29,471 nucleotides of DNA from a virus. Under the pieces are notes generated by a model. The model searched no databases. It was not told the DNA's origin and saw nothing but the letters and a program-made list of their open reading frames with translations. The stretch is taken from IMG/VR virus record IMGVR_UViG_3300027734_000238, positions 1 to 29,471 of that record. One strand, 5' to 3'. The position numbers were made by a program, and so were the translations under genes. Numbering within the stretch: position 1 is the stretch's first letter; every line of letters begins with the position of its first letter. This document shows, piece by piece, positions 5,144 to 27,271 of the stretch.

Positions 5144-5151
5144 TATTTAGC
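5144..5151 (-). promoter_or_regulatory. Late-promoter-like octamer GCTAAATA, 5 nt from ATG
   Basis: On the minus strand GCTAAATA is followed by ATACT and then the ATG at 5138. In T4-type late promoters the -10 element TATAAATA covers about -13 to -6, so +1 would coincide with the A of the start codon. No Shine-Dalgarno sequence is present. The same arrangement recurs at 14962-14969 and 15333-15340. Confidence 0.6.
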
Positions 5152-5163
5152 GTTTTAAACGAC

Positions 5164-5185
5164 GAAAGGGTCTTGCGACCCTTTC
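5164..5185 (-). terminator. Hairpin after the capsid gene, likely terminator
   Basis: Perfect 9-bp inverted repeat GAAAGGGTC / GACCCTTTC with a 4-nt loop (GCAA on the minus strand, a GNRA tetraloop). It lies between the capsid stop (5207) and the next promoter motif (5144-5151). The downstream T content on the minus strand (GTCGTTT) is modest, so it could also be an mRNA-stabilising or processing hairpin. Confidence 0.55.
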
Positions 5186-5206
5186 TTATAGTTTTACTAC
5201 TTGATA

Positions 5207-6427
5207 TTAAGAAGTAGAACCTGGACCAGCGTTTACACGACGGACTAATCCACTAGCACGTGGAGTAGTAACAAGTGTAGTACCAGTTGTGACGTTGTTT
5301 AACATACCAACACCTGCTGGGTTACGTACGATCAGCGTACCTTCCATCAAGAATTGATCTAAACTAGCATCAGCAGAACTGAATACTTCGTTGTTAGGAC
5401 CTAGGTCACGTAATGAACCCCACTGCAACACGTCTTCGTTCAAGAAGTAAATGCTGTTAGAAACACCGGATTGGTCCATGATCCAAGAATCATAGATTTC
5501 GTATGTGTAACTGAAGTCACCTTCGTATGTTTGAATCGTGTCACCACGCTCAACGTTACGACGGTTTACGCTTGTGTTAGAACTAACAATGTTATCACTG
5601 ATAGTAGTTCTTAAACTTGTTGGAACAACCATGGTACGGATCTTAGCGTTATAACGTTGTTCAGCTGTGGTTACCAATTGCTTGTATAACACTGGGCTGA
5701 ATGTTTGGTTAAGAGGACCAGATCCACCGTTTGTGTAGTAGTAATTACCATTGGCCACAACGTACAATGCGTTGACACCACTTGGGCTACCTGTCAATTG
5801 GCTCAATGTTGTTGAACTTGAATCACTGCTGGGTGCGTTGTAATTAGTTATCAAACCAGCTTCTGTAGTAGAAACTGTGCTGAAACTCATAGTACCAGCA
5901 TAAGATGCCAGTGAACCCATACGACGACCAGAAGTGCTGGTTGGTACACCACCAGCACCACCAGGAGCAGTACCTGTTTGACCACTGTACTGAGTACCAA
6001 TTTGGTCGTTACGAACCAATTGTTGTTCCACGTCAAACATCAATTCAATTAGCTGTTTAACTTCCTGATATGCCTGCGGATCTCCCCCGCTCTGCATAAC
6101 AGCACGAGCAGTACCAGTGGCACCAATCGTAGTTTGGAAGATCTGTGTGAAGTTGTTCAAGTTGTAACGCTGATTTGCTTCTGCGTTGTTTGCACTAACT
6201 AATGCACCTTCTGTAACAGCGTTAACTGCTGGCAAACGATAAATGTCGTCTGTCCACAATGGTTGTGTAGAGTTAACTTTGCGTTTCTTTGACATACACA
6301 TGTTTAGAACTGGTGTATCATCTTTAACGCGGTTAGACACATCTAGGTCTAAATCTTTGACAACGATGTCAGTTGCAAATGCACCAGTACCATTGCCAAT
6401 ATTTGTAGTATTAATAAATCCTGCCAT
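5207..6427 (-). CDS. Major capsid protein (SU10/DUF5309-like)
   Basis: 406 residues, the usual size for this group. Residues 88-142 read NNFTQIFQTTIGATGTARAV, then QEVKQLIELMFDVEQQL, then a charged stretch, followed by GRRMGSLASYAG near 166-178. This pattern (an asparagine-rich strand, a 'TQIF...V..TA.AV' strand, a long spine-like helix with E-L-..D-E-Q, then 'R.MGSL..Y') is what I know from the SU10 major capsid / DUF5309 family with the HK97 fold. A Ser/Thr/Gly-rich segment (about 185-235) may be a surface loop. Start supported by AAAGGAG upstream. It directly follows the scaffold-like gene and is followed by a strong hairpin, as expected for the most highly expressed virion gene. Confidence 0.85.
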   Translation of the reverse strand: MAGFINTTNIGNGTGAFATDIVVKDLDLDVSNRVKDDTPVLNMCMSKKRKVNSTQPLWTDDIYRLPAVNAVTEGALVSANNAEANQRYNLNNFTQIFQTTIGATGTARAVMQSGGDPQAYQEVKQLIELMFDVEQQLVRNDQIGTQYSGQTGTAPGGAGGVPTSTSGRRMGSLASYAGTMSFSTVSTTEAGLITNYNAPSSDSSSTTLSQLTGSPSGVNALYVVANGNYYYTNGGSGPLNQTFSPVLYKQLVTTAEQRYNAKIRTMVVPTSLRTTISDNIVSSNTSVNRRNVERGDTIQTYEGDFSYTYEIYDSWIMDQSGVSNSIYFLNEDVLQWGSLRDLGPNNEVFSSADASLDQFLMEGTLIVRNPAGVGMLNNVTTGTTLVTTPRASGLVRRVNAGPGSTS

Positions 6428-6445
6428 TTTAGGCTCCTTTAAATT

Positions 6446-7606: not shown

Positions 7607-7617
7607 TTATTTTTCCT

Positions 7618-7956
7618 TTAAGCATCGGGCACTTGCGTGTTACCGATGCGGCTTTTTAAGTAAACTGCCCTCTTTAGGCTATTCACAAAATTATCAATGC
7701 CCGCTAATTCATTGCTTATGGCAATTCTGCGAGCGTTGTCGTCTGGTTGATGACTACGAATGGAAGCTAATTCATCGGCCAGACTAAACTTAAAATGATG
7801 AACAAACATAGCTAAATCTTTGTTCTTCAATAATCCTTCAGCAGTACTGCCATAATGTATAACACGATCGCGTTGGCTTGGTGTTAACTTGCTGGGTTGA
7901 CTAACGTCAACTGTAAGTCTGCTGTTGTAAAAATCTACGGTGTCGTTTTCTATCAT
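7618..7956 (-). CDS. Small unknown protein between portal and scaffold
   Basis: 112 residues, not recognised. Predominantly helical and charged (TPSQRDRVIHYGSTAEGLLKN, FKFSLADELASIRSH), with no signal or membrane segment. It sits between the portal and scaffold-like genes. The ATG lacks a clear Shine-Dalgarno sequence (TATAGAATAGAAC precedes it), and an ACTAAATA late-promoter-like octamer ends 17 nt upstream. A minor head or portal-associated role is possible from context only. Confidence 0.65.
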   Translation of the reverse strand: MIENDTVDFYNSRLTVDVSQPSKLTPSQRDRVIHYGSTAEGLLKNKDLAMFVHHFKFSLADELASIRSHQPDDNARRIAISNELAGIDNFVNSLKRAVYLKSRIGNTQVPDA

Positions 7957-7973
7957 GTTCTATTCTATAATGT

Positions 7974-7981
7974 TATTTAGT
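7974..7981 (-). promoter_or_regulatory. Late-promoter-like octamer ACTAAATA
   Basis: Lies between the portal stop (7984) and the ATG at 7956, with 17 nt between octamer and ATG. The following bases ACATTAT are the same as after the 14962-14969 octamer, but here the trinucleotide 5 nt downstream is ATA rather than ATG. A TATAGAAT sequence lies in the leader. Confidence 0.5.
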
Positions 7982-7983
7982 GT

Positions 7984-10269
7984 TTAACTATAAACCTTTG
8001 GGTCGCCCATGGCCATGGCCATAAAGTCCAACTGTGACTCAGCATCTTCACCTGCCACTTCAGCGGCAATCTGCTGTGCTTTGACCTGTGCAAGTTCAGC
8101 GTCTGCAAGGAACTTCTTGTCTTGTGGACTTGGACCTTTAGCTTGTTGACTTTGTTGTGCGGCTTGAACCATCTTAACAACTTCTTCATCACTGGGCAAG
8201 TACGCATTACAGTCTTTGACACCCAATGTATACAATGTATCAGCGTAGGGCTTTTTAACTTTCTTATACATTTCAGGTGTCATGATGCCTTGTTGAACCA
8301 TGCCTTGAACACTTTGCAATAAACCTGTTTGTGCTTTTTGTATAATTTGTAGTCTGTTCAATGAGTTTTCTTCACTCATCATGCCCACGGCTAATTCTAA
8401 TTGTAGTTGTTTGCGGTCTGTCATTGAAGTCATGCTGTCCCAACCAATGTAATCCATGAACTCTGGTTTGCGATCTGGTCTGCATTGTCCAGCGATTTTC
8501 TTAACTCCGTAGTCATCACCATATTGAATCAATGTGCGCCATATCAAATACAGTGCTTCTTTGAGGCCTTCCGCGGCATTGCGTACTGTGTTGTCTTGAA
8601 TAATTTGGTTTGGACTTAGTGCAAGTTGTAGTTTAACACCACTGTTGCCTGCGGCCATGACTTCTGGATTGAATACGTCCTGTGGAGTAGTCATACCAAC
8701 CATGGCCATGACGTCTTTTTGTATACGGTCCATGCTTTGTGTTAAGAACGCTAGGTTGCCGCTGGGAGGAGGAATTTGGTAAATGTCTGTGGCTGGATTA
8801 AATTTTGAATCCAGAATAAAGATAGCTGATTCGCCATCCTGCAACATTTCAAAGTCTAGTCTGTCTGGTTTGACACCAATGCGTGGTGTAGCAGTTAACA
8901 AGCCCAATTGTATTTCTGCACGAGCCGCTGATGTTGAATATTCCTGCATGGGAATAACTGATTCAGCAATACTCATTCCGTAGAAGTTGCCGGGTAGGGG
9001 TTTTGGTACCATGTTGGCCACAGGAATGAATTCTACTTCACGTGCAGAAATAATATAACTGCCGGAATAGATAACTTCAACCAGTTCTAATTCACCATCA
9101 CCATCAATGTCATATCTGTTCCAAACAGTGACAATACTTACTTGACGGCTGTATGGATCAGCTGATGCCGCACTGCTCACTGGAATACCCATGATGGGCA
9201 CTGAATCACGTGCGTGAATAGCCAAGTTGTTCAACACTGAACCTGCTTGGTAAGCACCGCTTTGATTGTATTCTGCGTGTTCAGTGAATTCTTCTAAATT
9301 GATATCTGGATACAGTTCTGTGGCTTCCTGTATGGTCATTGGATCATAGTAACCACAGAATGGTTGATCCTTCATTTCTGGCACTGTGGGATCACAGACC
9401 CAGTAGTGCTGTGCAATAGGATGGAACTTGATGTTGATCATGTAGCCAGTTAACTTGTACTTGGCTTTGTAAATTGTGTTACGCTTAATAGCTTCGTTGA
9501 TGATGCTTTCTTGACCTTCAATGTTTTTGGCAAATATTTCTGTTTGGCCTTGTGCCAATGAAGTATAATTATCGTCTTCGTCTGCTTCACGCATACTGTC
9601 AATGTGCTTGTCCATGAGCTCATTGGTAATTTCTGTTTTTTGGTCACCCATTAACTGTTGTATTTCAGCCATGGCGGCCTGCAAGTTTACATTGATTTGT
9701 CGCTTGCTTTGGCGCAGTGTTGTCAATCCGGATTCAGCGGCCTGTAGTTCAAAGGCTTTTAATTGTTCATTGGTGCCTTCTGTTTCTATATAACGAGTAA
9801 TTTGTTCACGCACCGGTTTGATCATCATCATACCATTTTTGTGCATAGCGGCATCCATGACCCAACGCTCTAGAATAAAGTGCGGATCATTCATTTGGTT
9901 AACAACTTTTGACACCATGCTGGTAGCTTGACGTGCGGCTTCATCATCCCATTCACCGTCAGCTACAAATTCAAAGTTGATTTCGCCATTGGGCATAAGG
10001 CCTTTGGCAATAACTGCTGTGGCGTAATCTACAATAGGCTTGACTGTAGGATGTATGTAATCAATGCCGTTAACGGGTGCAGTACTGTCAGTGACTGCCA
10101 AACATAGATAGTGATAATCGCTGGCTCTGTTAACAGCGTTCTTTGTGCCTAGATAACGCAGGTAACTGGCCATCTTAGTGTCCATCATGCTTTTCATACG
10201 CACAAAGTTGGCGTTGATTTTTTTGTTTCTATTGATGTCCAATATTGGAATATTTTTTATGTCTAACAT
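7984..10269 (-). CDS. Portal protein (P22-like)
   Basis: 761 residues, close to the length of P22-type portals (about 725). The dodecameric portal is the DNA channel and packaging-motor docking site at one capsid vertex. Recognisable features: an N-terminal part with HPTVKPIVDYATAVIAKGLMP; a central charged helical section (residues about 170-260); a WNRYDIDGDGELELVEVIYSG stretch near 390-410; the wing/stem region KPLPGNFYGMSIAESVIPMQ followed by SAARAEIQLGLLTATPRIGV, typical of these portals; and a Gln/Ala-rich C-terminal helix (barrel-like, EVVKMVQAAQQSQQA...AELAQVKAQQIAAEVAGED). It lies downstream of the terminase. AAAGGTAA is upstream of the ATG, with GCTAAATA 28 nt before it. Confidence 0.85.
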   Translation of the reverse strand: MLDIKNIPILDINRNKKINANFVRMKSMMDTKMASYLRYLGTKNAVNRASDYHYLCLAVTDSTAPVNGIDYIHPTVKPIVDYATAVIAKGLMPNGEINFEFVADGEWDDEAARQATSMVSKVVNQMNDPHFILERWVMDAAMHKNGMMMIKPVREQITRYIETEGTNEQLKAFELQAAESGLTTLRQSKRQINVNLQAAMAEIQQLMGDQKTEITNELMDKHIDSMREADEDDNYTSLAQGQTEIFAKNIEGQESIINEAIKRNTIYKAKYKLTGYMINIKFHPIAQHYWVCDPTVPEMKDQPFCGYYDPMTIQEATELYPDINLEEFTEHAEYNQSGAYQAGSVLNNLAIHARDSVPIMGIPVSSAASADPYSRQVSIVTVWNRYDIDGDGELELVEVIYSGSYIISAREVEFIPVANMVPKPLPGNFYGMSIAESVIPMQEYSTSAARAEIQLGLLTATPRIGVKPDRLDFEMLQDGESAIFILDSKFNPATDIYQIPPPSGNLAFLTQSMDRIQKDVMAMVGMTTPQDVFNPEVMAAGNSGVKLQLALSPNQIIQDNTVRNAAEGLKEALYLIWRTLIQYGDDYGVKKIAGQCRPDRKPEFMDYIGWDSMTSMTDRKQLQLELAVGMMSEENSLNRLQIIQKAQTGLLQSVQGMVQQGIMTPEMYKKVKKPYADTLYTLGVKDCNAYLPSDEEVVKMVQAAQQSQQAKGPSPQDKKFLADAELAQVKAQQIAAEVAGEDAESQLDFMAMAMGDPKVYS

Positions 10270-10297
10270 ATGGGCGAATTACCTTTAGTATATCTAT

Positions 10298-10305
10298 TAT
10301 TTAGC
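10298..10305 (-). promoter_or_regulatory. Late-promoter-like octamer GCTAAATA before portal
   Basis: GCTAAATA followed by ATAGATATAC; 28 nt separate it from the portal ATG. A start 6 nt after the octamer would give a leader of about 23 nt with AAAGGTAA as ribosome-binding site. It overlaps nothing coding, lying just after the stop of the small gene ending at 10311. Confidence 0.55.
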
Positions 10306-10310
10306 GTTTT

Positions 10311-10508
10311 TTAATCCGGTAAAATAATTCTAGGGCGATGCAATTCGTCCTGCAGGTCGCAGGCATGACAACGAGCTGTTAGTGCATCTTCATCATCCAA
10401 TTCATATATTGTGTGAGGTGTCATTGCTGTGCAAGCGGCTATTTCAAATGATTTAGCATGGCGTTCACACAATATCATTGTGTTTTGTTCTATGGCACAG
10501 ATAAACAT
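10311..10508 (-). CDS. Small Cys/His-rich protein, unknown
   Basis: 65 residues. It contains CERH (residues 14-17), C25 and RCHACDL (46-52), suggesting a possible zinc-binding fold, although spacing is not a textbook zinc ribbon. An alternative start is the internal Met11. The first ATG overlaps the previous stop (TAATG) and has AAAGGAC 9 nt upstream, so I prefer it. It lies between the terminase and portal; function unknown. Confidence 0.55.
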   Translation of the reverse strand: MFICAIEQNTMILCERHAKSFEIAACTAMTPHTIYELDDEDALTARCHACDLQDELHRPRIILPD

Positions 10509-10732: not shown

Positions 10733-12343
10733 TTATTCTGGTGAAAACGTTTGTTTCCACGCTGGTCTATTTGTGTATTCTCTAGATACGTATTTGTCTC
10801 GCTGTGCTGCCATGCGTTGTTGCGGAGTTTTATTATCCCAGGGTTCTGCTATGCCTTGTAGGCAAGCCAATAGAGCATACCTAGCACTATCAATGCAGTC
10901 ATCTGGATCACTAAATCTTCCTTTTTCATCTACATAGTAGTTAGTTGCTTCGCTCAAGAATTGTGTGCAATTCTCATTGACCATTAAACTTCCTACTTCT
11001 AACATTTGTCGCATTTGGTTGATACCATATGCTTTGTGGTTAGTGACTCTGCCCTGTGGATCTGGCGGATTCATAATAGCTTTATCATAGACATTAAGTT
11101 CATACTGTTCAAATAATTCACGAATGCTGTTGGCACTCATAGTGTATCTGCCAGCAGTACTAGCGTCAGCAGGTAAAACGATAGGAGTACCGTACACTTC
11201 AGGACGAAGTAAATGATTGATATACTGAGTGGGGACAGCTTCTTCAATGCCCTGCACAACAATTTGTCTATGTAAAAAAGCAGTCTTCTCATGTGGTTCC
11301 CAATACATTAATGATATAACAGTTTTGTCGTTGACCAAGCCCAAGTCCAAGGCAATAACTCGTTGTATGCGTGGCATGCGTAAAAAGTCAATTTCACCTG
11401 TTTTATATGTGGGCCAGTTGCCGATTTGAAATACTGCACCTTTACCCATGACAGGCTTACCAGCAATACGTGCTTCACGTTCATGCGGCAAGTAATCTCG
11501 TTCCAATTGACGGCGTGTTTCATAGAGCAAGAATGGCATGCCCCATGGATCCATTTCAGGAACATCATCCCATGCCACACGAATAAATTCATAGCCTGTT
11601 TCTTTGTTCCAAAATTTACTTACAAGTCCGTTGAGGCCTTTGAGCGGTGTGAACGAACATAAAACTTTGCCCTGCGTGGTAGCAGTTCTAGTAACGATTT
11701 CACTGAAAAAGTCATCCGGTGGCTGCTCGTCAAACACCGCCAAATTAAGTTTGAAACCTTGTAGTTGCCTAACTTCCTGTGTGTAGTTAGCAAATAATAG
11801 ATAACTGTTAGTACCACTGACGTGCCGGATCTCACAGCCGATGTTGTTAGCACCATCGTTACGCATAGTATCAACAACAATACAATCACGGGGGACAGCA
11901 CCAGTGCCCAAATTTTCTGTAATCTTAACATCCTGTGTTCCTAATAATTCATTTTGCAATACCAGGGCAACCTGACTCCAACCTTCACCTGCTACCATGC
12001 AGGTAATGGGTTGTGTAAATCTATGTCCCTGCCACCAATCAGGATAAAGTCCAGTTAGGTGCATGGCAGTTTCATAGCAGGTACTCACAGTTTTGCCAAT
12101 CCTGTTTGCCGCAAGTATTCCTCGGCGTTCACTGTTGCCAGTTAAAAAGAATTTCTTTTGATGTTCAAAGGGTCTAAAGTATTTGAGCTGATTATACCGC
12201 ATGTCATCGGCAACGGCAATGCTCAAATCCATTAGTTCAGTTTTTACATCGCCATTTAAATTAGCCAAGGAATCCAATGTTAGGTCATACTTGTCCACTG
12301 CCCAACGTAATGCACGGCTCATTAATATTTCATTACCCAACAT
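10733..12343 (-). CDS. terL: Terminase large subunit
   Basis: 536 residues, normal length for a phage packaging ATPase/nuclease, which cuts concatemeric DNA and drives it through the portal. Visible motifs: Walker A-type GILAANRIGKT (residues 75-85), then TAMHLTGLYPDWW-like sequence (ETAMHLTGLYPDWWQG, 91-106), typical of the P22-like terminase group; Walker B LNLAVFDEQ (199-207) with the D-E pair 205/206; a coupling-like SFTPLKG (230-236); and the RNase H-like nuclease start VIALDLGL with Asp333. The ATG is preceded by AAGGTTAC and overlaps the previous stop (TAATG). Confidence 0.92.
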   Translation of the reverse strand: MLGNEILMSRALRWAVDKYDLTLDSLANLNGDVKTELMDLSIAVADDMRYNQLKYFRPFEHQKKFFLTGNSERRGILAANRIGKTVSTCYETAMHLTGLYPDWWQGHRFTQPITCMVAGEGWSQVALVLQNELLGTQDVKITENLGTGAVPRDCIVVDTMRNDGANNIGCEIRHVSGTNSYLLFANYTQEVRQLQGFKLNLAVFDEQPPDDFFSEIVTRTATTQGKVLCSFTPLKGLNGLVSKFWNKETGYEFIRVAWDDVPEMDPWGMPFLLYETRRQLERDYLPHEREARIAGKPVMGKGAVFQIGNWPTYKTGEIDFLRMPRIQRVIALDLGLVNDKTVISLMYWEPHEKTAFLHRQIVVQGIEEAVPTQYINHLLRPEVYGTPIVLPADASTAGRYTMSANSIRELFEQYELNVYDKAIMNPPDPQGRVTNHKAYGINQMRQMLEVGSLMVNENCTQFLSEATNYYVDEKGRFSDPDDCIDSARYALLACLQGIAEPWDNKTPQQRMAAQRDKYVSREYTNRPAWKQTFSPE

Positions 12344-12839: not shown

Positions 12840-13640
12840 TTAGTTGCTTCTTGTGTCAGTGCCCCATGGGTCAACAATAGCTTCACTGTTAAACTGTCCA
12901 AAGTCACGGTCTACGAATGTGTCCCAAAAATTACCTTTGTTAATTTTCATACTCTGCATCATGGTACGTAGTCTACGTCCCACTGGAGTCAGCGTGCCAT
13001 CATCACGCTGAATTGTTTGTTCGCCTGAACATTTGCCAAGCCATTTGATAATCTCTGGACGTTCACGACCAAATTTGTCAATTTTTGTGCCATGCGGTAC
13101 TTTTTCCCATGGACCATTGATTTCATAACTGATTGTGCCATCGTTGTATTTGCGGAATGTGCAATGACATTTTTTACCCACGGCTCTAGCGTCTGGATCC
13201 GGATGCGGAACAAAAGGACTAAAGAAATAATTTTGCAATTCGCTTTCGGGCGGTAAAGTAGGATCACGTGCGGGAATTTCTGGAAATGGTTCTTCGGGCA
13301 CCATTTCTGCTTTATCTAGATATGGATTTTCACCGCCAATAAAATTAGTGTCAATGTCTTGTCCGTTGAGAGCATCCATGGCCACTTGATATTTTAATTT
13401 GTTGGCACGACCTTTTAAGTTTAAGACAATCCCCGTTTCATCAAAGACAAATCTCTCAAGTTCTTTGGCCGTGGGAAAGTCGGTCATTAAACCTTCCATG
13501 TCGTATTCAGCGTTACTTATTGAACGTGGCGCAATGCCAGCAACTTGATTTGCTACTTCAATTATTTCTTGGGGTGTTGGAGAAGCGTCATCTTCCCATG
13601 GGCTGGCTACGTCTGTAGGCGTGGCTGTTTTCTTAGTCAT
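12840..13640 (-). CDS. Unknown 266-residue protein upstream of terminase
   Basis: Soluble, Pro- and charge-rich protein, not recognised. The N-terminal 40 residues are low complexity (TPTDVASPWEDDASPTPQE). Residues 75-105 (ERFVFDETGIVLNLKGRANKLKYQVAMDAL) look folded and helical. The C-terminal half has KKCHCTFRKYNDGTISYEINGPW and KWLGKCSGEQ, three Cys that might bind metal. The end is SEAIVDPWG. AAAGGAAATGAA precedes the ATG. Twin hairpins and a possible GTTAAATA promoter lie in front of it. Confidence 0.6.
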   Translation of the reverse strand: MTKKTATPTDVASPWEDDASPTPQEIIEVANQVAGIAPRSISNAEYDMEGLMTDFPTAKELERFVFDETGIVLNLKGRANKLKYQVAMDALNGQDIDTNFIGGENPYLDKAEMVPEEPFPEIPARDPTLPPESELQNYFFSPFVPHPDPDARAVGKKCHCTFRKYNDGTISYEINGPWEKVPHGTKIDKFGRERPEIIKWLGKCSGEQTIQRDDGTLTPVGRRLRTMMQSMKINKGNFWDTFVDRDFGQFNSEAIVDPWGTDTRSN

Positions 13641-13716: not shown

Positions 13717-13724
13717 TATTTAAC
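13717..13724 (-). promoter_or_regulatory. Weak late-promoter-like octamer GTTAAATA
   Basis: GTTAAATA, a one-base variant of the recurrent octamer, just after the stop of the 131-residue gene. If used, the leader would be about 70 nt and would contain both hairpins. Confidence 0.25.
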
Positions 13725-14430: not shown

Positions 14431-14813
14431 ACTTGATTTCCTTTAGTTGGGCCACGACCCATGTTAATTTTGTCTGCGTTGCCCTTGTAGTTTTGACCTT
14501 CACTGGGCATAAATGCTCTAGTGCCAGGAAAACGTCCGCCACCACTTTCACGTACTTGTGGATTGGCTGAACCAGGGAACATGTCTTTGCCTGGAGTAAA
14601 CTTTGGTAATGCGGCAGCATCTGGATATGTGCTGTCATCGTCACTCTTGTTGCCTACTGTAGGACCACGTTTGTTGTTAAACGTTTTGTTCGGGTTTTGG
14701 ATACCGCTGTGTTGGTTACCGGCGAATTTGTTTGCACCACGATTAACGCCATTACCTGCCATGCCGTTAAAATCTAAGTTCATATCGCTTTGTGTAATGC
14801 TATTATGCTTCAT
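14427..14813 (-). CDS. Small Asn/Gly-rich protein with two RGPTxGN motifs
   Basis: 128 residues, Asn/Gly/Pro-rich. Copies of the motif are NKRGPTVGN (about 47-55) and GRGPTKGN (about 119-126), and the protein ends one residue after the last copy. Other segments (FTPGKDMFPGS, GRFPGTRAFMPSEG) suggest an extended chain. Overlaps both neighbours by 4 nt (ATGA). AAAAGGA precedes the start. Function unknown. Confidence 0.65.
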   Translation of the reverse strand: MKHNSITQSDMNLDFNGMAGNGVNRGANKFAGNQHSGIQNPNKTFNNKRGPTVGNKSDDDSTYPDAAALPKFTPGKDMFPGSANPQVRESGGGRFPGTRAFMPSEGQNYKGNADKINMGRGPTKGNQV

Positions 14814-14956
14814 TTCATTTTTCCTTTTTTGCTTGCTGCCGCTCTCTTAGTAGAGTATGCGATTGCCACGGCCTGTTTAGGAGGCTTACCTGCGGCGATT
14901 TCTTTTTTAACATTCTCTGTGAATGCTTTTTTGCTGGTTGATTTTTTTAACGGCAT
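14810..14956 (-). CDS. 48-residue basic protein, probably leaderless
   Basis: A short gene beginning MPLKKSTSKKAFTENVKK and containing EIAAGKPPKQAVAIAYSTKR. The 'EIAAGKPxKQAVAIAYS' pattern is one I associate with small conserved phage proteins of unknown function. It is Lys-rich, helical and ends in KKGKMK. Its TGA overlaps the next ATG (ATGA). No Shine-Dalgarno sequence precedes the start; instead an exact TATAAATA ends 5 nt upstream. Confidence 0.75.
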   Translation of the reverse strand: MPLKKSTSKKAFTENVKKEIAAGKPPKQAVAIAYSTKRAAASKKGKMK

Positions 14957-14961
14957 AATGT

Positions 14962-14969
14962 TATTTATA
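14962..14969 (-). promoter_or_regulatory. Exact T4-type late octamer TATAAATA, 5 nt from ATG
   Basis: TATAAATA then ACATT then ATG on the minus strand. It overlaps the TAA stop and last codon of the preceding gene. The predicted +1 coincides with the start codon; no ribosome-binding site is present. Confidence 0.65.
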
Positions 14970-15327
14970 CTTGTTTGACCCCAGTAAGTTTGCTCAATGC
15001 TTCTGCAAAGGCCAACTGCTTGGCTTGAACTGCGTCTTCGCTGTCAGTTACTTCAATTTTAGCTAGAGTATTCATAACTTTGTTTAGAATCAAATTATGA
15101 TACTTTAACACTACATTCTTATCACCTTCATTGCGAGCTGATATAAAATCTTCAACTAGTAATTCTTCGTAACGCTGTCCGCCTGTGCGGGATTCTAAGC
15201 TGGACAATAAGTCTTCTACGCTGACGTGATTCTTACTGCCTTTTTTACGGCCAGCATTGGGGCGAGCTCCGCCACGGCTGGAGATCTTTTTCTTTTCTTT
15301 GGGTTGTTCTATGCTATCTGTTTTCAT
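14965..15327 (-). CDS. Possible terminase small subunit / DNA-binding protein
   Basis: 120 residues. The basic N-terminus has SSRGGARPNAGRKKGSKN (residues about 17-34), the 'GGARPxAGRKKGS' pattern often seen at the start of phage small terminases and similar DNA-binding proteins. The rest is helical and charged (SVEDLLSSLESRTGGQRYEE, VVLKYHNLILNKVMNTLAKI). It lies at the head of the cluster that leads to the large terminase, consistent with TerS, although about 2.6 kb of small genes intervene. There is no Shine-Dalgarno sequence; GCTAAATA ends 5 nt before the ATG. The TerS assignment is an inference; a regulator is the alternative. Confidence 0.55.
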   Translation of the reverse strand: MKTDSIEQPKEKKKISSRGGARPNAGRKKGSKNHVSVEDLLSSLESRTGGQRYEELLVEDFISARNEGDKNVVLKYHNLILNKVMNTLAKIEVTDSEDAVQAKQLAFAEALSKLTGVKQV

Positions 15328-15332
15328 AATAT

Positions 15333-15340
15333 TATTTAGC
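15333..15340 (-). promoter_or_regulatory. Late-promoter-like octamer GCTAAATA, 5 nt from ATG
   Basis: GCTAAATA-ATATT-ATG on the minus strand, with no Shine-Dalgarno, again predicting a leaderless transcript. Only 3 bp separate it from a plus-strand ATTAAATA. Confidence 0.6.
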
Positions 15341-15343
15341 AGG

Positions 15344-15351
15344 ATTAAATA
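15344..15351 (+). promoter_or_regulatory. Possible divergent promoter octamer ATTAAATA
   Basis: Plus-strand ATTAAATA with 22 nt to the ATG at 15374; the leader carries AGGA. It differs from the main motif by one or two bases, so it is weaker evidence than the minus-strand copies. Confidence 0.35.
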
Positions 15352-15373
15352 CAGTACTAGACTAGGAATTGCA

Positions 15374-15948: not shown

Positions 15949-16380
15949 TTAATCTAATGTGCTACGCAACATCCAAATTGACTTTTCTATGTCCAAGGCT
16001 TGGTCTTGTGCGTAGTTACTGATTTCTTCTAGACCTTCATCACTGGCAATTATAATCAGTGCTTTATAATCTTCTAGTAAATGTTCCAAGTCCATCATCA
16101 CAGTTTCTAATAACTCATCTGCTTTGCCTTCAATGGCATCTGTGGGTATTGTACTGTCTGCTACAACTTCTGTGATATCGCAGGGCATGTATTCTTGCAT
16201 GGTGCGTAGTAGTTCACCAATCTTATCAATCTCTGCTTGTCTACGTTCATAGACACCCTGTAGTAGTTTATGGTCACTGCGGAAATTGCGACCTGTGATG
16301 TTTACATGTGCCGCATGACTTCTAAAATAAGCAACAAAGTTATTTTTAAAGAGTTGTGTTAGTAGTTCTGCTGTTGTCAT
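15949..16380 (-). CDS. Dps/ferritin-like protein
   Basis: 143 residues, close to a minimal Dps (about 150-170). Dps proteins form 12-mers that oxidise and store iron using H2O2 and often protect DNA. Features: HVNITGRNF (residues 25-33), matching the HWNxxGxNF signature; then SDHKLLQGVYE (35-45), IDKIGE (51-56), and a C-terminal EKSIWMLRSTL, matching the conserved HExxxWMLR end. Aligned to E. coli Dps, ferroxidase ligands H51, H63, D78 and E82 correspond to H25, H37, D52 and E56, whereas D67 corresponds to Gln41. There is no Lys-rich N-terminal DNA-binding tail. AGGAC precedes the ATG, directly after the ejection-type gene. Fold assignment is strong; iron oxidation is likely but untested. Confidence 0.8.
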   Translation of the reverse strand: MTTAELLTQLFKNNFVAYFRSHAAHVNITGRNFRSDHKLLQGVYERRQAEIDKIGELLRTMQEYMPCDITEVVADSTIPTDAIEGKADELLETVMMDLEHLLEDYKALIIIASDEGLEEISNYAQDQALDIEKSIWMLRSTLD

Positions 16381-20029: not shown

Positions 20030-20746
20030 TTAAAACTTCCATGGAAGCGCAACGCTGGCGCTCTTACCACTAGTGCTGGTGCCTGTTGGGCCCATGTTAT
20101 TATAACTTGAACTTGGTGCACCGTAGGCTATGTTAGCCAAACGACCATATGCATCCATGGGCACGTTTGCGGCTCCTAGAATTTGATTGGCTGCTGATAT
20201 AGCACCTGGCAATGCTTGTCCACCGTAGCCCATTAAGCTGGTAGCGGCACCTTGTCTTTGTTGTGCAACTTGATTGGCAACCTGTGCGGCAATCTGTGCT
20301 TGTTGGCCAGCGTTTGCGCCTGCCATTTGTTGTCCTGCCAGTGCTTGACGTGCTGAACCCAACTGTCCTGCTCCACCAAAACCTATGCCTTGGTTAGTTA
20401 CGTTTTGTTGATACTGTGCCTGCGCAGGTGCAAGTGCAGCCTGTATTTGATTCTGTTCATAGTCTTTGCCGAACAGGCCTTGTAGGCCACTAACGCCTGT
20501 GCGTAGTGCTGATTCACCGGTTTCACCTAGTGTCTGTTGAACTTGTCCTGCTGTACCAGCTAGGTTTTGTCCTGCTTTATACATGCCCGGCAAGTTTTGT
20601 TCATATATGCCTTTGGCGCCACCTACGATGTCTTTGTACGTTGGAGCAATGACATTTGTATAAAAGTCACTTTGTGCTTTTACATATTCACGCTGTTCCG
20701 GACTTAGCGTTGGTATTGATTGACTACTGCTTTTTCCCATTCCCAT
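20030..20746 (-). CDS. Internal virion (ejection-type) protein, Gln/Ala/Gly-rich
   Basis: 238 residues. Starts with a Ser-rich segment, then a helical stretch (LSPEQREYVKAQSDFYTNVI), followed by Gly/Ala/Gln-rich helices (GQLGSARQALAGQQMAGANA, QAQIAAQVANQVAQQRQGAA). This resembles the small ejection proteins of podoviruses (P22 gp7 or T7 gp14 type) by composition and position next to the transglycosylase gene; I see no specific signature. AAAGGAAATT precedes the ATG and GCTAAATA lies 22 nt upstream, so it may head the transcript of the ejection-protein genes and Dps. Confidence 0.6.
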   Translation of the reverse strand: MGMGKSSSQSIPTLSPEQREYVKAQSDFYTNVIAPTYKDIVGGAKGIYEQNLPGMYKAGQNLAGTAGQVQQTLGETGESALRTGVSGLQGLFGKDYEQNQIQAALAPAQAQYQQNVTNQGIGFGGAGQLGSARQALAGQQMAGANAGQQAQIAAQVANQVAQQRQGAATSLMGYGGQALPGAISAANQILGAANVPMDAYGRLANIAYGAPSSSYNNMGPTGTSTSGKSASVALPWKF

Positions 20747-20768: not shown

Positions 20769-20776
20769 TATTTAGC
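20769..20776 (-). promoter_or_regulatory. Late-promoter-like octamer GCTAAATA
   Basis: GCTAAATA followed by ATAAAAATAAAGGAAATT on the minus strand; 22 nt to the ATG at 20746. Predicted leader of about 17 nt with a good ribosome-binding site. Confidence 0.55.
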
Positions 20777-20780: not shown

Positions 20781-21965
20781 TTAAGCCAAGCCCTTGCTAC
20801 GTAAGAATGCATCACGAGCCTGAGGATCTAGGATGCTCAAATAACTTTGTTCTGCTGGGCTCAATTGAGGATAGCTGGGCTGTCCTTGTAATATACTCAA
20901 AGCACTTTGGAACGTTGCAGGTTGTGCTATGTTCTGTATGCCCCATGGTGTCTGTGGCGCTGTGGGCACTGTGTTGTATGCTGTTGCATTAAAGGCGTCG
21001 CCTGTTTGTAATGCTCTACCTGTGCCCCAATAGAATTTACTTTGGACATCATTGGTTGTATTGTAAAACGGTATGGATTCAATCATGCCAGGATTTAGAT
21101 ATTTGCCGGCTTTGCCTGTTGTGGGAACAACTGGTACCGTTGGGCCTGGGCCTATAGGAACTACTGGAGTGGCTACACCGCCGTCTCCGCCTCCATCACC
21201 ACCTCCATCACCACCTCCATCGCCGGTATCACCCGTGTCTCCAGTATCATCTCCGGTATCATCTCCGGTATCATCACCAGTGTCATCGCCAGTGTCATCA
21301 CCAGTGTCATCACCAGTGTCATCGCCAGTGTCATCGCCAGTGTCATCACCAGTATCATCTCCAGTGTCGTCTCCTGTGTCATCACCAGTATCATCACCAG
21401 TATCATCTCCAGTATCATCTCCAGTATCATCTCCAGTATCATCACCGGTGTCATCTCCTGTGTCATCGCCGGTATCGTCTCCACTGTCGTCTCCGGAATC
21501 GTCACCCGAATCATCTCCACTGTCACCAGTATCACCAGTATCACCAGTATCGCCAGTATCGCCTGTGTCACCTGTGTCACCACCGGCATCACCACCTGCG
21601 TCACCACCTGCGTCACCACCGGCATCACCTCCGGCATCACCACCTGCGTCACCTCCGGCATCTCCACCAGCGTCTCCGCCACCTCCGTCGCCACCACCTC
21701 CATCACCACCACCGCCATCTCCTCCGCCACCTCCGTCGCCTCCACCTCCATCACCACCACCGCCATCATCAAATTCCATTAAACCTGTGTATGGATTGAC
21801 AGCGCCGGATCCGCCATGTTCTTTTAACAAGTCTACTTCATCTGGATTGATGTGAGCCACAATGGTATCTTCACCGCGTCCGTGTTTAGCCAGTTCTTTA
21901 GCTAGGCGTGCTAGATCAGCGTCACTTAGTGTGCTGAAATCAATTTGGTTCTGTTTTTTCTTCAT
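20781..21965 (-). CDS. Ejection-type protein with extreme Asp/Gly repeat domain
   Basis: 394 residues. The N-terminus (residues about 35-68) has AHINPDEVDLLKEHGGSG then NPYTGLMEFDDGG, a 'HINPxE..LLK..GGSG..NP.TGL.EF' pattern that I associate with phage internal virion proteins. About 200 residues of tandem repeats follow: GGGGD, AGGD (8), TGD (6), SGDD (4), TGDD (about 19), then GGGD units. A Pro-rich linker (TPVVPIGPGPTVPVVPTT) leads to a folded C-terminus with LSILQGQPSYPQLSPAEQSYLSILD. The repeat is strongly acidic and probably disordered or cation-binding. It is not an RTX nonapeptide. AGGAC lies upstream of the ATG. Confidence 0.7.
   Translation of the reverse strand: MKKKQNQIDFSTLSDADLARLAKELAKHGRGEDTIVAHINPDEVDLLKEHGGSGAVNPYTGLMEFDDGGGGDGGGGDGGGGGDGGGGDGGGGDGGGGDAGGDAGGDAGGDAGGDAGGDAGGDAGGDAGGDTGDTGDTGDTGDTGDTGDSGDDSGDDSGDDSGDDTGDDTGDDTGDDTGDDTGDDTGDDTGDDTGDDTGDDTGDDTGDDTGDDTGDDTGDDTGDDTGDDTGDDTGDDTGDDTGDTGDTGDGGGDGGGDGGGDGGVATPVVPIGPGPTVPVVPTTGKAGKYLNPGMIESIPFYNTTNDVQSKFYWGTGRALQTGDAFNATAYNTVPTAPQTPWGIQNIAQPATFQSALSILQGQPSYPQLSPAEQSYLSILDPQARDAFLRSKGLA
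21178..21772 (-). repeat. Tandem low-complexity repeat coding Asp/Gly units
   Basis: About 590 bp of 9-, 12- and 15-bp units. On the plus strand the main unit looks like TCATCACCAGTG with synonymous variation. The protein period is kept while third positions vary, so selection on the amino acid pattern is likely, not just recent slippage. Unit number may vary between relatives and is prone to assembly error. Confidence 0.85.
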
Positions 21966-21990: not shown

Positions 21991-21998
21991 TATTTATG
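21991..21998 (-). promoter_or_regulatory. Late-promoter-like octamer CATAAATA
   Basis: CATAAATA on the minus strand, 25 nt before the ATG at 21965; it lies within a GCATAAATATGC near-palindrome. AGGAC is in the predicted leader. Confidence 0.5.
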
Positions 21999-22661: not shown

Positions 22662-22677
22662 TTCTTTTCCTTTTCTA

Positions 22678-23841
22678 TTAAAATTTAACAACTTGAACGC
22701 TAATGTTTCTGTTGCCTAACTTGCTCTGTGAAACTTCACAGGCTCCAGTATCATTTATCACTCTAAACAACAAATCTACCCTGTACAAATAATAAGCACT
22801 GCCAGGATTGTCAATTACGTTGGAGAACACAGTTTCTTCCACGGGCAAGGTTGCTGTGCCTATGGCCACGGCATATTGATAAGTTTGTAGTGCCACAGTT
22901 TGATCATAGAAATATTGAAACTCTGTATTGGTCAATGTCAATGAGGGCACAGCCACGTATCTGTTAATGGCCACAGTATACTCTAGAGTTGTTGTCGCTG
23001 TGGCAGTGTATGTTATGGTGTTGTCCAATTGAGCAGATATAAACACACGATCCAAATTACCATTGACAGTGACATTGCTGGCACAGTCTGTGGTATTCCA
23101 ATATACGCTGCCGGGAAAGCCTGGACTTACACCCACCACAGGAGGTTGTAGTGTATTGCTGACTTTGATTGATCCACCGGTGCTGGTACCCGCGTTGGCA
23201 ATGTCCACAGCACTTTGCAGTGTCACTGTGCTTTCAGTGCAGGCCACAACTCCGGGCCCTGTATACAATCCATTATAATATGCGCTGCCAAATATCAAAG
23301 GCAGTGTGCCTAGTTCAAAGGGCGGTGTGGGCTGTGCTGTGGCAAAGGTCACTATAATAGTTCTTGCATCCTGCCAAGCTATTGTGCCAATTGCAATGGG
23401 TGCAACATATAGTACCGCAGGAGGTAAATTGTAAAATGTCACAGCACCCTGCACTGCACCCACATTGGCCACGGTAAGGGGAACTATCCATGGCGTATTG
23501 ATTTCATCATAGTCAACGCTGACCAGCGCACCTGCGGCTATGTTAGTGCCATATACATATTGTCCTATGGCAATCTTACTAGGTATATTGGCATCATTTT
23601 GTCTTAGACTGCCGGGATCACTGACGGTAAGTTCTGTGCTACCACTGGCACCATGCCCGGGTGTGGTATAGCCTGCCACCGTACTGGGCTGACGCACATT
23701 GCCACGTAGCCATGCTGTGAAACTGTCATTGAAGCCAGAGAAGTTTTGCCCTAGGCCTGATGGGCCACTCAGCGCATAGTTGATGGCCTCAACTAGACTT
23801 TCACTGTCCTTACGTGCATATTCAACTGGAAACTGTGCCAT
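22678..23841 (-). CDS. Virion structural protein, tail region
   Basis: 387 residues. The N-terminal domain (FPVEYARKDSESLVEAINYALSG) looks folded; the remainder is beta-rich with Thr/Val/Ala strands. The segment IGQYVYGTNIAAGALVSVD...GAVQGAVTFY (about 92-137) matches the type of beta module inserted in the adaptor. The C-terminus has DLLFRVINDTGACEVSQSKL. AGAGGATG precedes the ATG, which overlaps the nozzle-like gene's stop (TAATG), so both are co-translated and probably co-assembled in the tail. Precise role unknown. Confidence 0.6.
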   Translation of the reverse strand: MAQFPVEYARKDSESLVEAINYALSGPSGLGQNFSGFNDSFTAWLRGNVRQPSTVAGYTTPGHGASGSTELTVSDPGSLRQNDANIPSKIAIGQYVYGTNIAAGALVSVDYDEINTPWIVPLTVANVGAVQGAVTFYNLPPAVLYVAPIAIGTIAWQDARTIIVTFATAQPTPPFELGTLPLIFGSAYYNGLYTGPGVVACTESTVTLQSAVDIANAGTSTGGSIKVSNTLQPPVVGVSPGFPGSVYWNTTDCASNVTVNGNLDRVFISAQLDNTITYTATATTTLEYTVAINRYVAVPSLTLTNTEFQYFYDQTVALQTYQYAVAIGTATLPVEETVFSNVIDNPGSAYYLYRVDLLFRVINDTGACEVSQSKLGNRNISVQVVKF

Positions 23842-26800
23842 TAACGATCATCCTCTACTTGTGTATACTGCCACGTGATGCCTGTGACCATCCATATTTG
23901 TTGATTACTGCTGTTGCTCATGTTAACGCTGTTGACGCGATAAGCATTTTGATTATACTGCATCCATGGATATTCTGTGTCACTGCTGATCACGCCTGTG
24001 TTAACACTCGCAGGAGCTTGTCCCACGCTGTTAGCACCTTTGAGAGTGACGCTGAGATCACCTATCAAATTGGTTGACACTGTGCCACTGAGCGTCTGCG
24101 GTCCAGCTGTTGTGCCCAACCAACTAACACTGGTAGTGGTACAGGTAGTCACAGTCTTTACACCATTGAAGCCATTGGGACTAACGTTTTCAATCAGTAT
24201 GGTATCACCTGAGTTGAAGGGTGCGCTTTCCTGTTCTGCGAATGTCACTGTGTTGTAAGTGCCATCCGTTGACGCTGTTAATGTAGTAAAGCTGGCTGCA
24301 CTGATTGGAACTTCATTGTTGTTCAAGTTCACAAACTCTGGCAGTATCCTATGCACCAGCAACTTACCACTGTAGTCATTCAACAGTTTTAAGTTGTCAC
24401 GTTCAAAGTAACTGCTGATTAGTCCATCAGGATTTTCTGTGGTTGATAAGAAAGCATAACCTTGATCCTTCTGCACAATCTTCTGCGCTGATTCTCCTCT
24501 AGCATAGATCACTGTTCTACTAGCAGGACGGTATAACCATGTGCCTGTCGTTGGACTATAGAAACGCACAGGACTTTCTGCGGCTGCTGTGGCTGCTGTA
24601 ACATCACGGGGAGCATTCCAACAGTCTAGGTCATAACGATATGAAATCATCTTGTTGGGCACACCATACGTAGTGATAGCCACTGTTAGGCCTGTTGTTG
24701 TACCGGCCGTAGTTGTTATAGCACTACCGTTTGCTGTTGCGCTTAGTGTAAACGTTGTTGATCCGTTTGTGGCAATGATATAATAGGTTGTAGGACTTGT
24801 GTAGCCTGTTATTGAACCAGATCCGGATAACGTGCCGCTGATCGTAATAGCTTGCCCTAGAACCAACGTAGTAGCATTACAGCTAAACTGACCTGCTGTA
24901 CCTGCTATAGCAACTCCACTTAGATTATTATAAGCGGCAGCATCCACAGTAGGATAATATATCTCAATTTGGTTACGCTGTGTGTTGGCCTGCATGTAAA
25001 TTCTATCTGTGTAACGTTGATCAATTTGATTAAAGAACCAATTCTTTACACGTTGATTACCCAAGCCCACGAACTGTGTACCATCAAAGGCCCATACGTC
25101 TCTGGCATCAATACCATAGATAACTTTGTCTGTGTTAGCAAAACAGTTTGCCGATAATAATCCTCGTCCTTGATTAAACAATCTAACACCTAGGATAGGA
25201 GCATTGGTAGTTGTATAGTTGATAGGACTGAACACCACTGTGTCCCAATAACTGCATAGAAACAACTGACCATTACAAGGGAAAGCATCTAGGCTGGCTC
25301 CTCGCAGTGGAACTTCAAGTTGGTTGGCCACGTTCAATATTGTGGGTGTCCATGTTAAAGGAGCAGTCTCAAGTCCAAAGTTCTGGCTCCACTGTACGGT
25401 AACAGGATATTCTTCTGTTTGTCCAGTGGTCTTATTTGTAGCTGTTAAGTTACCTGCAACTAGAATACTACCAACGTTGGGTGTATTGTATAAGCGCATC
25501 CATCCTGCGTGTACTGCACTCCAATTGGGATTATAGTTCCATGAATATTCCGGTGCCACTGTGCCTATACTGTTGCCAGGATATACTGTGCCGATACCAT
25601 TGGGAGCGTTAAAGTTTATTGTTGATGTGGTCGCTGATACAACTTCAAAGACACCATTAAAGTAATTGTTGACGTTGGCGATCTGTATATTTTCTCCTGC
25701 TGTAAAGGGCGCTGATGGCTGTGTTTGGTCTAAGGTAATTTGATATTCTGTATTACTAATGTAGGTAATGTTTGATATGCCCATGGGTATTTGATTACTG
25801 TACATGATCATGCGAGGTAATTCTGGACCCACCGTGCCTGCTGTTGTCTGTGCGCCCCATGTGCCTGTTAATGCATAACTCACGCTGGTAGTGGTTGATG
25901 CAGTGACTACATATGTGCCTTGATACTGCGCCGGCACAATGGTTGATACTGCAATGGTTTGTCCCACGTAGAAAGGAAAGTATACAAATGTCAGGCCTGT
26001 AGTAGCACCTGGCAGTGTAGTAACTGCTGTGCCACCTAGTGTAGTGCTCAATGTGAATTCATTAAAGCCATTTGTTGCTATAATGAAATATGTTGTGGGA
26101 GTAACATAACCTGTGATTGCCGGAGGCTGAATGCTGAATGTGAGTCCAGTTGTAGATCCCACTGTGGTAACTATGGCCGCTCCACCTGTGGTCTTAAGCG
26201 TAAACAACGTGGATCCATTGGTAGTGGCAATCACGTAGGTAGTGGGATCACTATAAGCTGTGATCGTGCCCGTGCCTGAGAGCGTACCCGATACGATGAC
26301 TTGCTGTCCTACCAACAGTGTAGTTGCCGCACAGGCAAATAAACCTGCGGTATTCACAATGCCTACACCAATTGTGTAAGTTAGTCCTGTGGGCGTACCT
26401 GCTGTGGTAACTATGGCCACACCTGCGGCAGTTACCAGCGTGAATGTTGTTGTGCCATTGGTAGCACTTATTCTATATGTTGTGGGATTGGTATAGCCTG
26501 TGATTGTGCCGGTGCCACCCAATGTGCCGCTGATCGTAACTGTTTGTCCCACGCTGAGTTGTGTGCTAGTGCAGGAGAATTGACCTGCTATACCTGTAAT
26601 CTTTACGCCTGATATAGTTGCAGTGGGCACAACCACAGGTGTAGTTATGGCGCCACTGACTGTGACCTTTTGATTGACCTTGAGTTGTTCACCACTGCTG
26701 TAACTAAACTTACCTTCAGTGTTGGTAATAGTCACAGTGGCCAAAGGAGTTTGTTGAGCAAAGCCCAAGGTAGCTGTGCCGGAACCTGATGTCGCTGATG

Positions 26801-27242
26801 TAGTCACTATTCTATATGCCGTGTCTTCTGGCCAGAACATGGGAGGATTCTGTGCGTCATTGAAGAAAGGCACTGTGCCGCTCCATGATTCTGTGATGTT
26901 CTGTCCCTGTGTATATGTGCCGACACCGTTGACAGGAGTAATGTCATACCATAGATAGTTACGTGCGGCATACCATTTACCATCTTCCTGTGCAATGATA
27001 GTCCAGAAACGGCCATCCTGTCTAAAGCCTGAACTGATGTAAGTGGGTGTGCCTGGTGTGGCCTGCGCTAGAATATTTTGATCGCCACTGACGCTTCTAA
27101 TACCTCTAACATCAGTTTCCACGTTTAAGCCAGCATTGAATTCATTAGGCCCCAAGGCCGCACTGGGCACGTCGGGTGTAAATGACATTTTCGCAAAGGG
27201 TACGCGAACTTCGTTGAGACTACTGTTTATTTGTTTTGGCAT
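23841..27242 (-). CDS. Tail nozzle / gp10-like protein with inserted beta modules
   Basis: 1133 residues. The N-terminus (NEVRVPFAKMSFTPDVPSAAL...VRSVSGDQ-like, residues 8-56), GFRQDGRFWTIIAQEDGKWYA (72-92) and the central-to-late part (LRGASLDAFPCNGQLFLCSYWDTVVFSP, split across 646-673; TDKVIYGIDARDVWAFDGTQF, 704-724) resemble beta-propeller tail nozzle or P22 gp10-type hub proteins that seal and gate the tail tube. At least two full copies and fragments of an 80-residue module (GQFSC..TxLxVGQxVxISGTL..TTY.I.ATNGxTxFTL) lie at 168-420, with another at 776-856 inside the propeller-like part. A second module type (NGVFEVVSATTSTINF-like) is near 425-475, 515-566 and 1009-1056. AGGAA precedes the ATG. 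Confidence 0.7.
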   Translation of the reverse strand: MPKQINSSLNEVRVPFAKMSFTPDVPSAALGPNEFNAGLNVETDVRGIRSVSGDQNILAQATPGTPTYISSGFRQDGRFWTIIAQEDGKWYAARNYLWYDITPVNGVGTYTQGQNITESWSGTVPFFNDAQNPPMFWPEDTAYRIVTTSATSGSGTATLGFAQQTPLATVTITNTEGKFSYSSGEQLKVNQKVTVSGAITTPVVVPTATISGVKITGIAGQFSCTSTQLSVGQTVTISGTLGGTGTITGYTNPTTYRISATNGTTTFTLVTAAGVAIVTTAGTPTGLTYTIGVGIVNTAGLFACAATTLLVGQQVIVSGTLSGTGTITAYSDPTTYVIATTNGSTLFTLKTTGGAAIVTTVGSTTGLTFSIQPPAITGYVTPTTYFIIATNGFNEFTLSTTLGGTAVTTLPGATTGLTFVYFPFYVGQTIAVSTIVPAQYQGTYVVTASTTTSVSYALTGTWGAQTTAGTVGPELPRMIMYSNQIPMGISNITYISNTEYQITLDQTQPSAPFTAGENIQIANVNNYFNGVFEVVSATTSTINFNAPNGIGTVYPGNSIGTVAPEYSWNYNPNWSAVHAGWMRLYNTPNVGSILVAGNLTATNKTTGQTEEYPVTVQWSQNFGLETAPLTWTPTILNVANQLEVPLRGASLDAFPCNGQLFLCSYWDTVVFSPINYTTTNAPILGVRLFNQGRGLLSANCFANTDKVIYGIDARDVWAFDGTQFVGLGNQRVKNWFFNQIDQRYTDRIYMQANTQRNQIEIYYPTVDAAAYNNLSGVAIAGTAGQFSCNATTLVLGQAITISGTLSGSGSITGYTSPTTYYIIATNGSTTFTLSATANGSAITTTAGTTTGLTVAITTYGVPNKMISYRYDLDCWNAPRDVTAATAAAESPVRFYSPTTGTWLYRPASRTVIYARGESAQKIVQKDQGYAFLSTTENPDGLISSYFERDNLKLLNDYSGKLLVHRILPEFVNLNNNEVPISAASFTTLTASTDGTYNTVTFAEQESAPFNSGDTILIENVSPNGFNGVKTVTTCTTTSVSWLGTTAGPQTLSGTVSTNLIGDLSVTLKGANSVGQAPASVNTGVISSDTEYPWMQYNQNAYRVNSVNMSNSSNQQIWMVTGITWQYTQVEDDR

Positions 27243-27263
27243 CGTGGATTCCTATTATTACAT

Positions 27264-27271
27264 TATTTATA
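27264..27271 (-). promoter_or_regulatory. Exact TATAAATA before the nozzle-like gene
   Basis: TATAAATA followed by ATGTAATAATAGGAATCCACG and the ATG at 27242 (21 nt). The predicted leader of about 16 nt keeps AGGAA as ribosome-binding site. Likely start of the tail transcript. Confidence 0.6.

Follow-up and report, generated by a model that had tools for sequence, protein, structure and literature searches.

Late transcription of phage T4 starts at promoters with the consensus TATAAATA, read through gp55, gp33 and gp45; a review places a box of 8 bp, position -13 included, roughly one turn before the start, with no -35 element and with A/T-rich sequence downstream (PMC2988020). Phage CBB is reported to have ATAAATA as its late motif and to carry a gp55-like factor; gp33 and gp45 were not detected in it according to the available part of that report (PMC5259590), and coliphage rV5 is described, in the corresponding passage, as carrying a T4-late-like motif before its late genes and no gp55, gp33 or gp45 homologue (PMC3606486). 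A single-element late promoter of another form, tAATGTAtA, with starts 6 to 8 bp downstream, is assigned to the sigma factor gp36 of phiEco32 in the excerpt cited here (PMC8948821). Virophages such as Sputnik and Mavirus are said in the source passage to place their own virion genes under the late promoters of another virus (PMC6723459). Here we analyzed the IMG/VR virus record IMGVR_UViG_3300027734_000238, whose entire 29,471 bases form the window of this study, and in which octamers ending in TAAATA precede the genes of a podovirus-like virion module. These octamers are very probably T4-type late promoters. Our favored reading, unproven and with a probability of roughly 45%, is that the T4-type late promoters of the clade represented by the window are read by a factor supplied in trans from a co-infecting T4-like phage.

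The initial annotation had reported eight minus-strand octamers in intergenic positions shortly before genes. All eight are present where it placed them, and 10 of the 11 minus-strand TAAATA hexamers lie in gaps between genes, compared with one of the four plus-strand copies. The minus strand, which is the main coding strand, holds 11 of the 15 copies in the window. This total is not an over-representation as such (chance mean, 21). Within the gaps, which make up 1,438 of the 29,471 bases and are non-coding according to a hand-made gene list, dinucleotide shuffling gave a mean of 3.4 copies and reached at least 10 in 5 of 2000 trials. Two of the gap sites, at 13717 (GTTAAATA) and 28458 (GGTAAATA), had not been annotated before, nor had the spacing of 5 nt before start codons. 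From box end to start codon, the ten gap sites measure 5 nt (three sites), 17 to 28 nt (six sites) and 76 nt (one site).

The three close boxes, all predicted to yield leaderless mRNAs, are GCTAAATA at 5144..5151, ending 5 nt before the ATG of gene 4554-5138; GCTAAATA at 15333..15340, ending 5 nt before the ATG of gene 14965-15327; and TATAAATA at 14962..14969, which overlaps the stop of gene 14965-15327 and stands 5 nt before a 48-amino-acid open reading frame (ORF) at 14810-14956. The more distant minus-strand boxes are ACTAAATA at 7974..7981 (17 nt before gene 7618-7956), GCTAAATA at 10298..10305 (28 nt before the portal gene, 7984-10269), GCTAAATA at 20769..20776 (22 nt before gene 20030-20746), CATAAATA at 21991..21998 (25 nt before gene 20781-21965), TATAAATA at 27264..27271 (21 nt before gene 23841-27242), GGTAAATA at 28458..28465 (21 nt before gene 28134-28436) and GTTAAATA at 13717..13724 (76 nt before gene 12840-13640). 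A single minus-strand TATAAATA at 16480 is intragenic. Facing the opposite way, a plus-strand TAAATA at 15346..15351 lies 22 nt before the plus-strand gene 15374-15862 and forms a divergent pair with the box at 15333; a similar divergent pair is found in the relative G016.

Relatives were gathered by terminase and head-protein searches of IMG/VR, from which the best 80 of 142 and the best 80 of 179 stretches were used; the clade set consists of the window and 24 long records taken whole (25 records). Genes were called with a simple in-house script, which makes start positions and small genes approximate. Nine records with overlapping ends were treated as near-complete genomes: G002, G003, G005, G012, G014, G015, G016 and G019, with at least 97% identity over 70 to 2,566 bases, and G001 at 86%; G006 and G008 (overlap of 84 to 90%) were excluded from this count. 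The genomes, from uncultivated phages, are podovirus-like and about 33 to 40 kb in size (about 33 to 39 kb for the near-complete ones), and the terminase, portal and head protein families are present in all nine near-complete records. The nearest named phage is MW202484 (terminase, 50.5%; portal, 45.4%). A count of every hexamer, with no motif assumed beforehand, ranked TAAATA first for enrichment in the non-coding DNA of the 25 records, with 253 copies compared with 7.2 expected from coding density and 56 on the opposite strand; Shine-Dalgarno words rank next.

A base-preference profile, with the core TAAATA as the search term, was drawn from 170 sites at most 120 nt from a start. It shows A (40%) or G (39%) at -13 and C (51%) or A (37%) at -12, no conservation near -35, and A/T-rich, G-poor sequence downstream. 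The clade thus shares with T4 late promoters a single conserved box at the inferred -10 position before virion genes, the lack of a -35 element and the A/T-rich downstream region. It does not match the full T4 consensus TATAAATA, its boxes being mostly [AG][CA]TAAATA, and it differs from T4 also in a frequent 5-nt spacing and in having no recognized gp55. Both box form and conservation among relatives agree with the view, put forward in the initial annotation, that a podovirus-like virion module would here be under T4-type late promoters.

A sister clade served as the control; it comprises MW202484 with 44 related loci and has terminases about 50% identical to those of the window clade. Intergenic TAAATA density is 0.29/kb in the sister clade versus 7.61/kb in the window clade (44 versus 80 loci, with near-identical contigs among them and with partial overlaps in sequence). 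None of the 44 sister loci has a site at 0 to 12 or 15 to 28 nt, and the 80 window-clade loci have 67 sites at 5 nt and 76 at 15 to 28 nt. That the boxes are chance A/T-rich spacer sequence, as the unremarkable TAAATA total of the window might suggest, is refuted by the absence of the pattern from this control and conflicts with the strand, position, spacing and clade specificity of the sites; we regard its probability as practically negligible. The two clades also differ in gene content. RusA was found in 17 of 24 sister records (MW202484 and the records of 23 of the 44 loci), ERF in 9 of 24 and at least one of them in 22 of 24, and each is present in 0 of 25 window-clade records. We infer that the window clade gained the promoters and lost the ERF/RusA genes. 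In the sister loci (L367-L410), G-runs are strongly enriched in non-coding DNA, together with a repeated element containing GGGGGGCCCACTC, perhaps a signal of their own.

Distances from box to start codon are bimodal across the clade (209 sites), with 60 sites at 4 to 7 nt (exactly 5 nt in 44 of them), 79 at 15 to 28 nt and 48 at 60 nt or more. Among the 64 A/T hexamers compared, no other matches the TAAATA count at one distance, and the runners-up are the same stretch read in shifted, overlapping frames. Shine-Dalgarno-like words precede 9 of 75 near-class genes, compared with 86 of 99 far-class genes and 493 of 646 other genes. The spacing class tracks the gene family. The box stands at 4 to 7 nt in 23 of 24 members of the family that follows the head protein (4554-5138 in the window), in 19 of 26 members of the 120-amino-acid family (14965-15327) and in 11 of 18 members of the 48-amino-acid family (14810-14956). 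It stands at 15 to 28 nt in 22 of 25 portal genes, in 23 of 24 members of cluster 9 (20030-20746) and in 11 of 25 members of the 23841-27242 family. Neither spacing occurs in the 25 members of the 12840-13640 family, nor in most of the remaining virion families.

With a gap of 5 nt, the T4 register would place +1 at the A of the AUG, so these mRNAs are predicted to be leaderless, a prediction also drawn from the scarcity of Shine-Dalgarno words in the near class; many near-class genes are probably leaderless. The box, a single element at roughly -13 to -6, would be read by host core RNA polymerase with a gp55-type sigma factor and would drive the virion genes of the clade. Transcription would begin at the A of the AUG in the 5-nt class, and in a second set of genes the box would be followed by a short leader with a Shine-Dalgarno sequence. 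The 5-nt spacing class before ATG is new. No description of leaderless T4-type late genes, or of phages dependent on T4-like late transcription, was found in open-license literature searched largely at the level of titles and abstracts. Phage transcripts are often leaderless according to a remark in the available part of the AR9 paper (PMC5312081), so the novelty would not lie in leaderless phage mRNA itself. Alternatively, the box might be an RNA signal before virion genes, a processing site or translation element, and leaders might be processed. Because the 5-nt class mostly lacks a Shine-Dalgarno sequence, the box at 5144 follows a strong hairpin and phages with gp55 have this box before their genes too, this alternative appears very improbable.

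The initial annotation had pointed to a sigma factor gene, gp55-like or of converging specificity, outside the window. No gp55-like gene was recognized in the clade records, the nine near-complete relatives included, and profile searches of the kind it had suggested returned no convincing gp55, Sigma70_r2 or Sigma70_r4_2 in the clade. A gp55 model (PHROG 234) matched 13 of 15 T4-like records, which served as the positive control, and gave no convincing match in 45 clade records (one borderline match of 13 bits lies inside a 922-amino-acid frame). PHROG 12791, used earlier as a gp55 probe, matched none of the controls, was uninformative and was replaced by PHROG 234 with the T4-like controls. 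No match to hidden Markov models (HMMs) of T4-like gp55 was obtained in 18,714 clade ORFs, which are partly redundant (best E value, 1.7), and a gp55 profile found nothing among 230 clade protein clusters (best match, 26% over 15 columns). Pfam Sigma70_r2 matched 11 of 14 control genomes and 0 of 25 clade records; it also missed three gp55-bearing T4-like records, so this test is blind to a gp55-type factor. No Sigma70_r4_2 match passed the cut-off in the 25 clade records, in which two short sub-threshold matches fall in large open frames; the domain passed it once, in the T4-like record G028.

The main rival to a trans-supplied factor is a late sigma-like factor of the phage's own, diverged from gp55 or unrelated to it, which would have converged on the box and be made from early sigma-70 promoters. 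Promoters of the form TTGACA-17-TATAAT do precede many small early genes, giving the clade two promoter classes. Precedents exist in the single-element promoter of phiEco32 gp36 (PMC8948821, in the excerpt cited) and in rV5, whose T4-late-like motif occurs with no gp55 (PMC3606486, likewise in the passage cited). One 115-amino-acid early protein of G015 (L192:11687-12034), preceded by two sigma-70-type promoters, contains a gp55-like NPHxY-x7-AF string, with an E value of only 1.7 to the gp55 HMM. This candidate was dropped as a singleton, the string occurring in one called protein among the 25 records. Genes common to all 25 records, several of them with no known function, lie within the virion and packaging block. 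The box is constant and yet none of the early genes is shared throughout the clade, which makes a conserved early sigma factor unlikely, although an unrecognizable one may exist. Few families present in 24 or 25 records lack a homologue in MW202484, namely clusters 0, 6 and 10, and also cluster 2 but for a weak trace (E value, 0.0095). Cluster 2 is the universal 120-amino-acid protein, and its structure model was uninformative (predicted template modeling score [pTM], 0.39; no PDB match at an E value of 0.001 or below). A 266-amino-acid gene before the terminase was rejected as a candidate, its homologue being present in the motif-free MW202484. We consider a self-encoded factor possible, with the odds against it.

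Late-type boxes were also found in the parts examined of T4, S-RIM8, Acidovorax phage ACP17 and Melnitz, in which sites at 5 nt number 0 of 20 (72.9 kb), 0 of 11, 1 of 9 and 0 of 6, respectively. Environmental T4-like contigs were fetched by ACP17/T4 head-protein alignment (best 80 of 107). With near-identical contigs counted singly, one group has 17 of 74 sites at 5 nt, together with 8 sites at a distance of 0 nt that follow a Shine-Dalgarno sequence, and another group has 18 of 206; in the T4-like record G026 the count is 16 of 65. Across six T4-like records, a Shine-Dalgarno sequence is absent at 45 of 49 sites spaced 4 to 7 nt. The head protein of L285, from the second group, is 66.7 to 71.3% identical to those of CBB, GAP32, PA5oct and similar phages. 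Environmental relatives of the CBB/GAP32-type jumbo T4-like phages have the same 5-nt class, but phages of that type differ from the clade in their large genomes, their own gp55 and a different preference at -12.

Further signals are shared between the clade and T4-like contigs. The clade records G007, G017 and G020 have an early promoter block, TTGACACAAAT...TATAATA, in common with the T4-like records G026 and G036, and its similarity extends to spacer bases that sigma-70 should not need. Copies in the T4-like G028 mostly have TATACT at -10, and other clade copies of the 11-mer (G006 and G018) are not promoters, as judged by eye. Repeats in fibre-type genes are also common to both. The window repeat at 2862-3002, within gene 2-3337 (itself with no family match), has 72 to 85% DNA identity to contigs L251, L253, L255, L257, L258 and L259. 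Eight sample identifiers common to clade and T4-like contigs were given no weight, the sister clade sharing some of them. A host sigma factor might instead read the box, if the clade had switched to a host with an RNA polymerase that recognizes it; the window and sister clades differ in their early promoters too, as if their hosts differed. A gp55 would then be needless for the T4-like phages, which carry one along with the same box, and the clade has ordinary TTGACA-17-TATAAT early promoters. To our knowledge, no bacterial sigma factor with a TAAATA-type box has been described. We judge this explanation distinctly unlikely.

The reading that we favor is that a T4-like phage in the same cell would supply the factor in trans, much as giant viruses provide the late promoter system used by virophages. 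The motif, its position and conservation, the spacing classes, the absence of the pattern from the sister clade and the lack of a detectable gp55 are observed; on this reading the box would be a promoter, a gp55 would read it, and that gp55 would come from the co-infecting phage. A trans-supplied factor is preferred because the box is constant without a constant gene to account for it, recombination genes are missing, replication genes are mostly missing and signals are shared with T4-like phages. Replication was assessed from the 152 non-universal proteins of the nine near-complete genomes, of which 63 were scanned jointly by Pfam (17 families matched) and PHROGs (25 of 39 matched families listed); ten proteins of G002 and ten single proteins were scanned in addition. 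Among the proteins scanned and the PHROG matches listed, seven of the nine near-complete genomes have no recognizable replication enzyme. The scanned proteins include methylases, HNH and GIY-YIG nucleases, metallopeptidase-like proteins and, in three cases, a small ExoX-like C-terminal domain. Matches of three early proteins to phrog_16, "DNA helicase", were set aside, this family being matched by the three methylases as well.

Several observations weigh against a helper phage. The joint scan covered 63 of the 152 proteins with 25 of 39 PHROG families listed, and PriPol-type primase genes are present in seven records, two of them near-complete; G001 and G002 carry a PriPol gene along with a DUF5906 gene (L163:9212-11810 and L165:8377-10871), and the PriPol family was detected in none of the remaining seven near-complete genomes. 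Small early genes stand behind sigma-70-type promoters, and the product of one of them might be the factor. The precedent of rV5, in the passage available, means that a missing gp55 need not imply a helper. The start positions are taken from the T4 register. The clade preference at -12 (C, 51%; A, 37%) differs from that of six T4-like records (A, 43 to 55%), so no sampled T4-like phage matches the clade exactly; ACP17 has C or G at -12 in 8 of 9 sites. The fibre repeats also match an annotated tail fibre gene of the motif-free MW202484, which the T4-like contigs with the window repeat in part match too, and repeat sharing is therefore not special to the window clade. A shared host alone would explain the shared promoter blocks and repeats. 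Finally, the sister clade lacks the early promoter of the window clade as well (0 blocks in 632,726 bases), which makes a change of host a confounder.

If the factor does come from a T4-like phage, the clade could be a bacterial counterpart of the virophages, with its own virion module but lacking most replication genes and the recombination genes that its relatives have; this broader view is doubtful. Equally doubtful is its corollary, that the late genes under a T4-like promoter would be expressed, and the genome perhaps copied, only in co-infected cells. Virophages are eukaryotic systems with a known giant-virus partner, whereas the dependence of the clade is inferred. The clade keeps its own head and packaging genes, unlike satellites of the P4 type. 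It resembles the phiEco32-like phages, as far as the excerpt describes them, in its single-element late promoter, but their box is tAATGTAtA and their sigma factor self-encoded, and no Pfam sigma domain passed the cut-off in the clade, gp36 itself not being among the queries. In rV5, the cited passage gives eight copies of a looser motif, TggTAaAAtA, and mentions no leaderless class. Were the reader to come from a T4-like phage, late promoters would be a sequence-traceable sign of dependence between phages and the clade a new kind of phage parasite; were it an unrecognized phage protein, it would represent a new class of factor that arrived at the T4 box by convergence. In both cases, leaderless late mRNAs are predicted from the 5-nt class, for the small phages as well as for the T4-like ones.

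The remaining features of the window lie on the minus strand unless stated otherwise. The major head protein (5207..6427; phrog_1328, E value 9.5e-29), the portal protein (7984..10269; phrog_1216, 1.1e-27) and the terminase large subunit (10733..12343; phrog_2, 3.5e-25) were assigned by family matches. The predicted leaderless gene after the head protein gene (4554..5138) encodes 194 amino acids and has no family match. The hairpin at 5164..5185, which separates the box at 5144 from the head protein gene, is terminator-like; its region (5150-5210) folds at -17.3 kcal/mol (z score, -5.0), and because a terminator pattern scan reports it on the plus strand only, it has no clean T run on the minus strand. 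The 120-amino-acid gene (14965..15327), with a basic Gly/Arg-rich N terminus, is present in 25 of 25 clade records and, by resemblance only, is a putative small terminase subunit. A Dps/ferritin-like protein (15949..16380; PF00210, 7.6e-12) is encoded within the virion region in 24 of 25 clade records, with no homologue found in MW202484. The only plus-strand gene called in the window, 15374-15862, has its own facing TAAATA box and is present in 21 of 25 records; it gave no Pfam match (in the longer frame 15257-15862) and no NCBIfam match, and is possibly acetyltransferase-like, again by resemblance only. A terminase search of bacterial genomes gave one match, of 50 residues, located where a contig of a Bacteroidota assembly (JAURIG010000039.1) ends. 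This fragment (L220:2-151) is 88% identical to the family and possibly belongs to a phage contig binned with that assembly.

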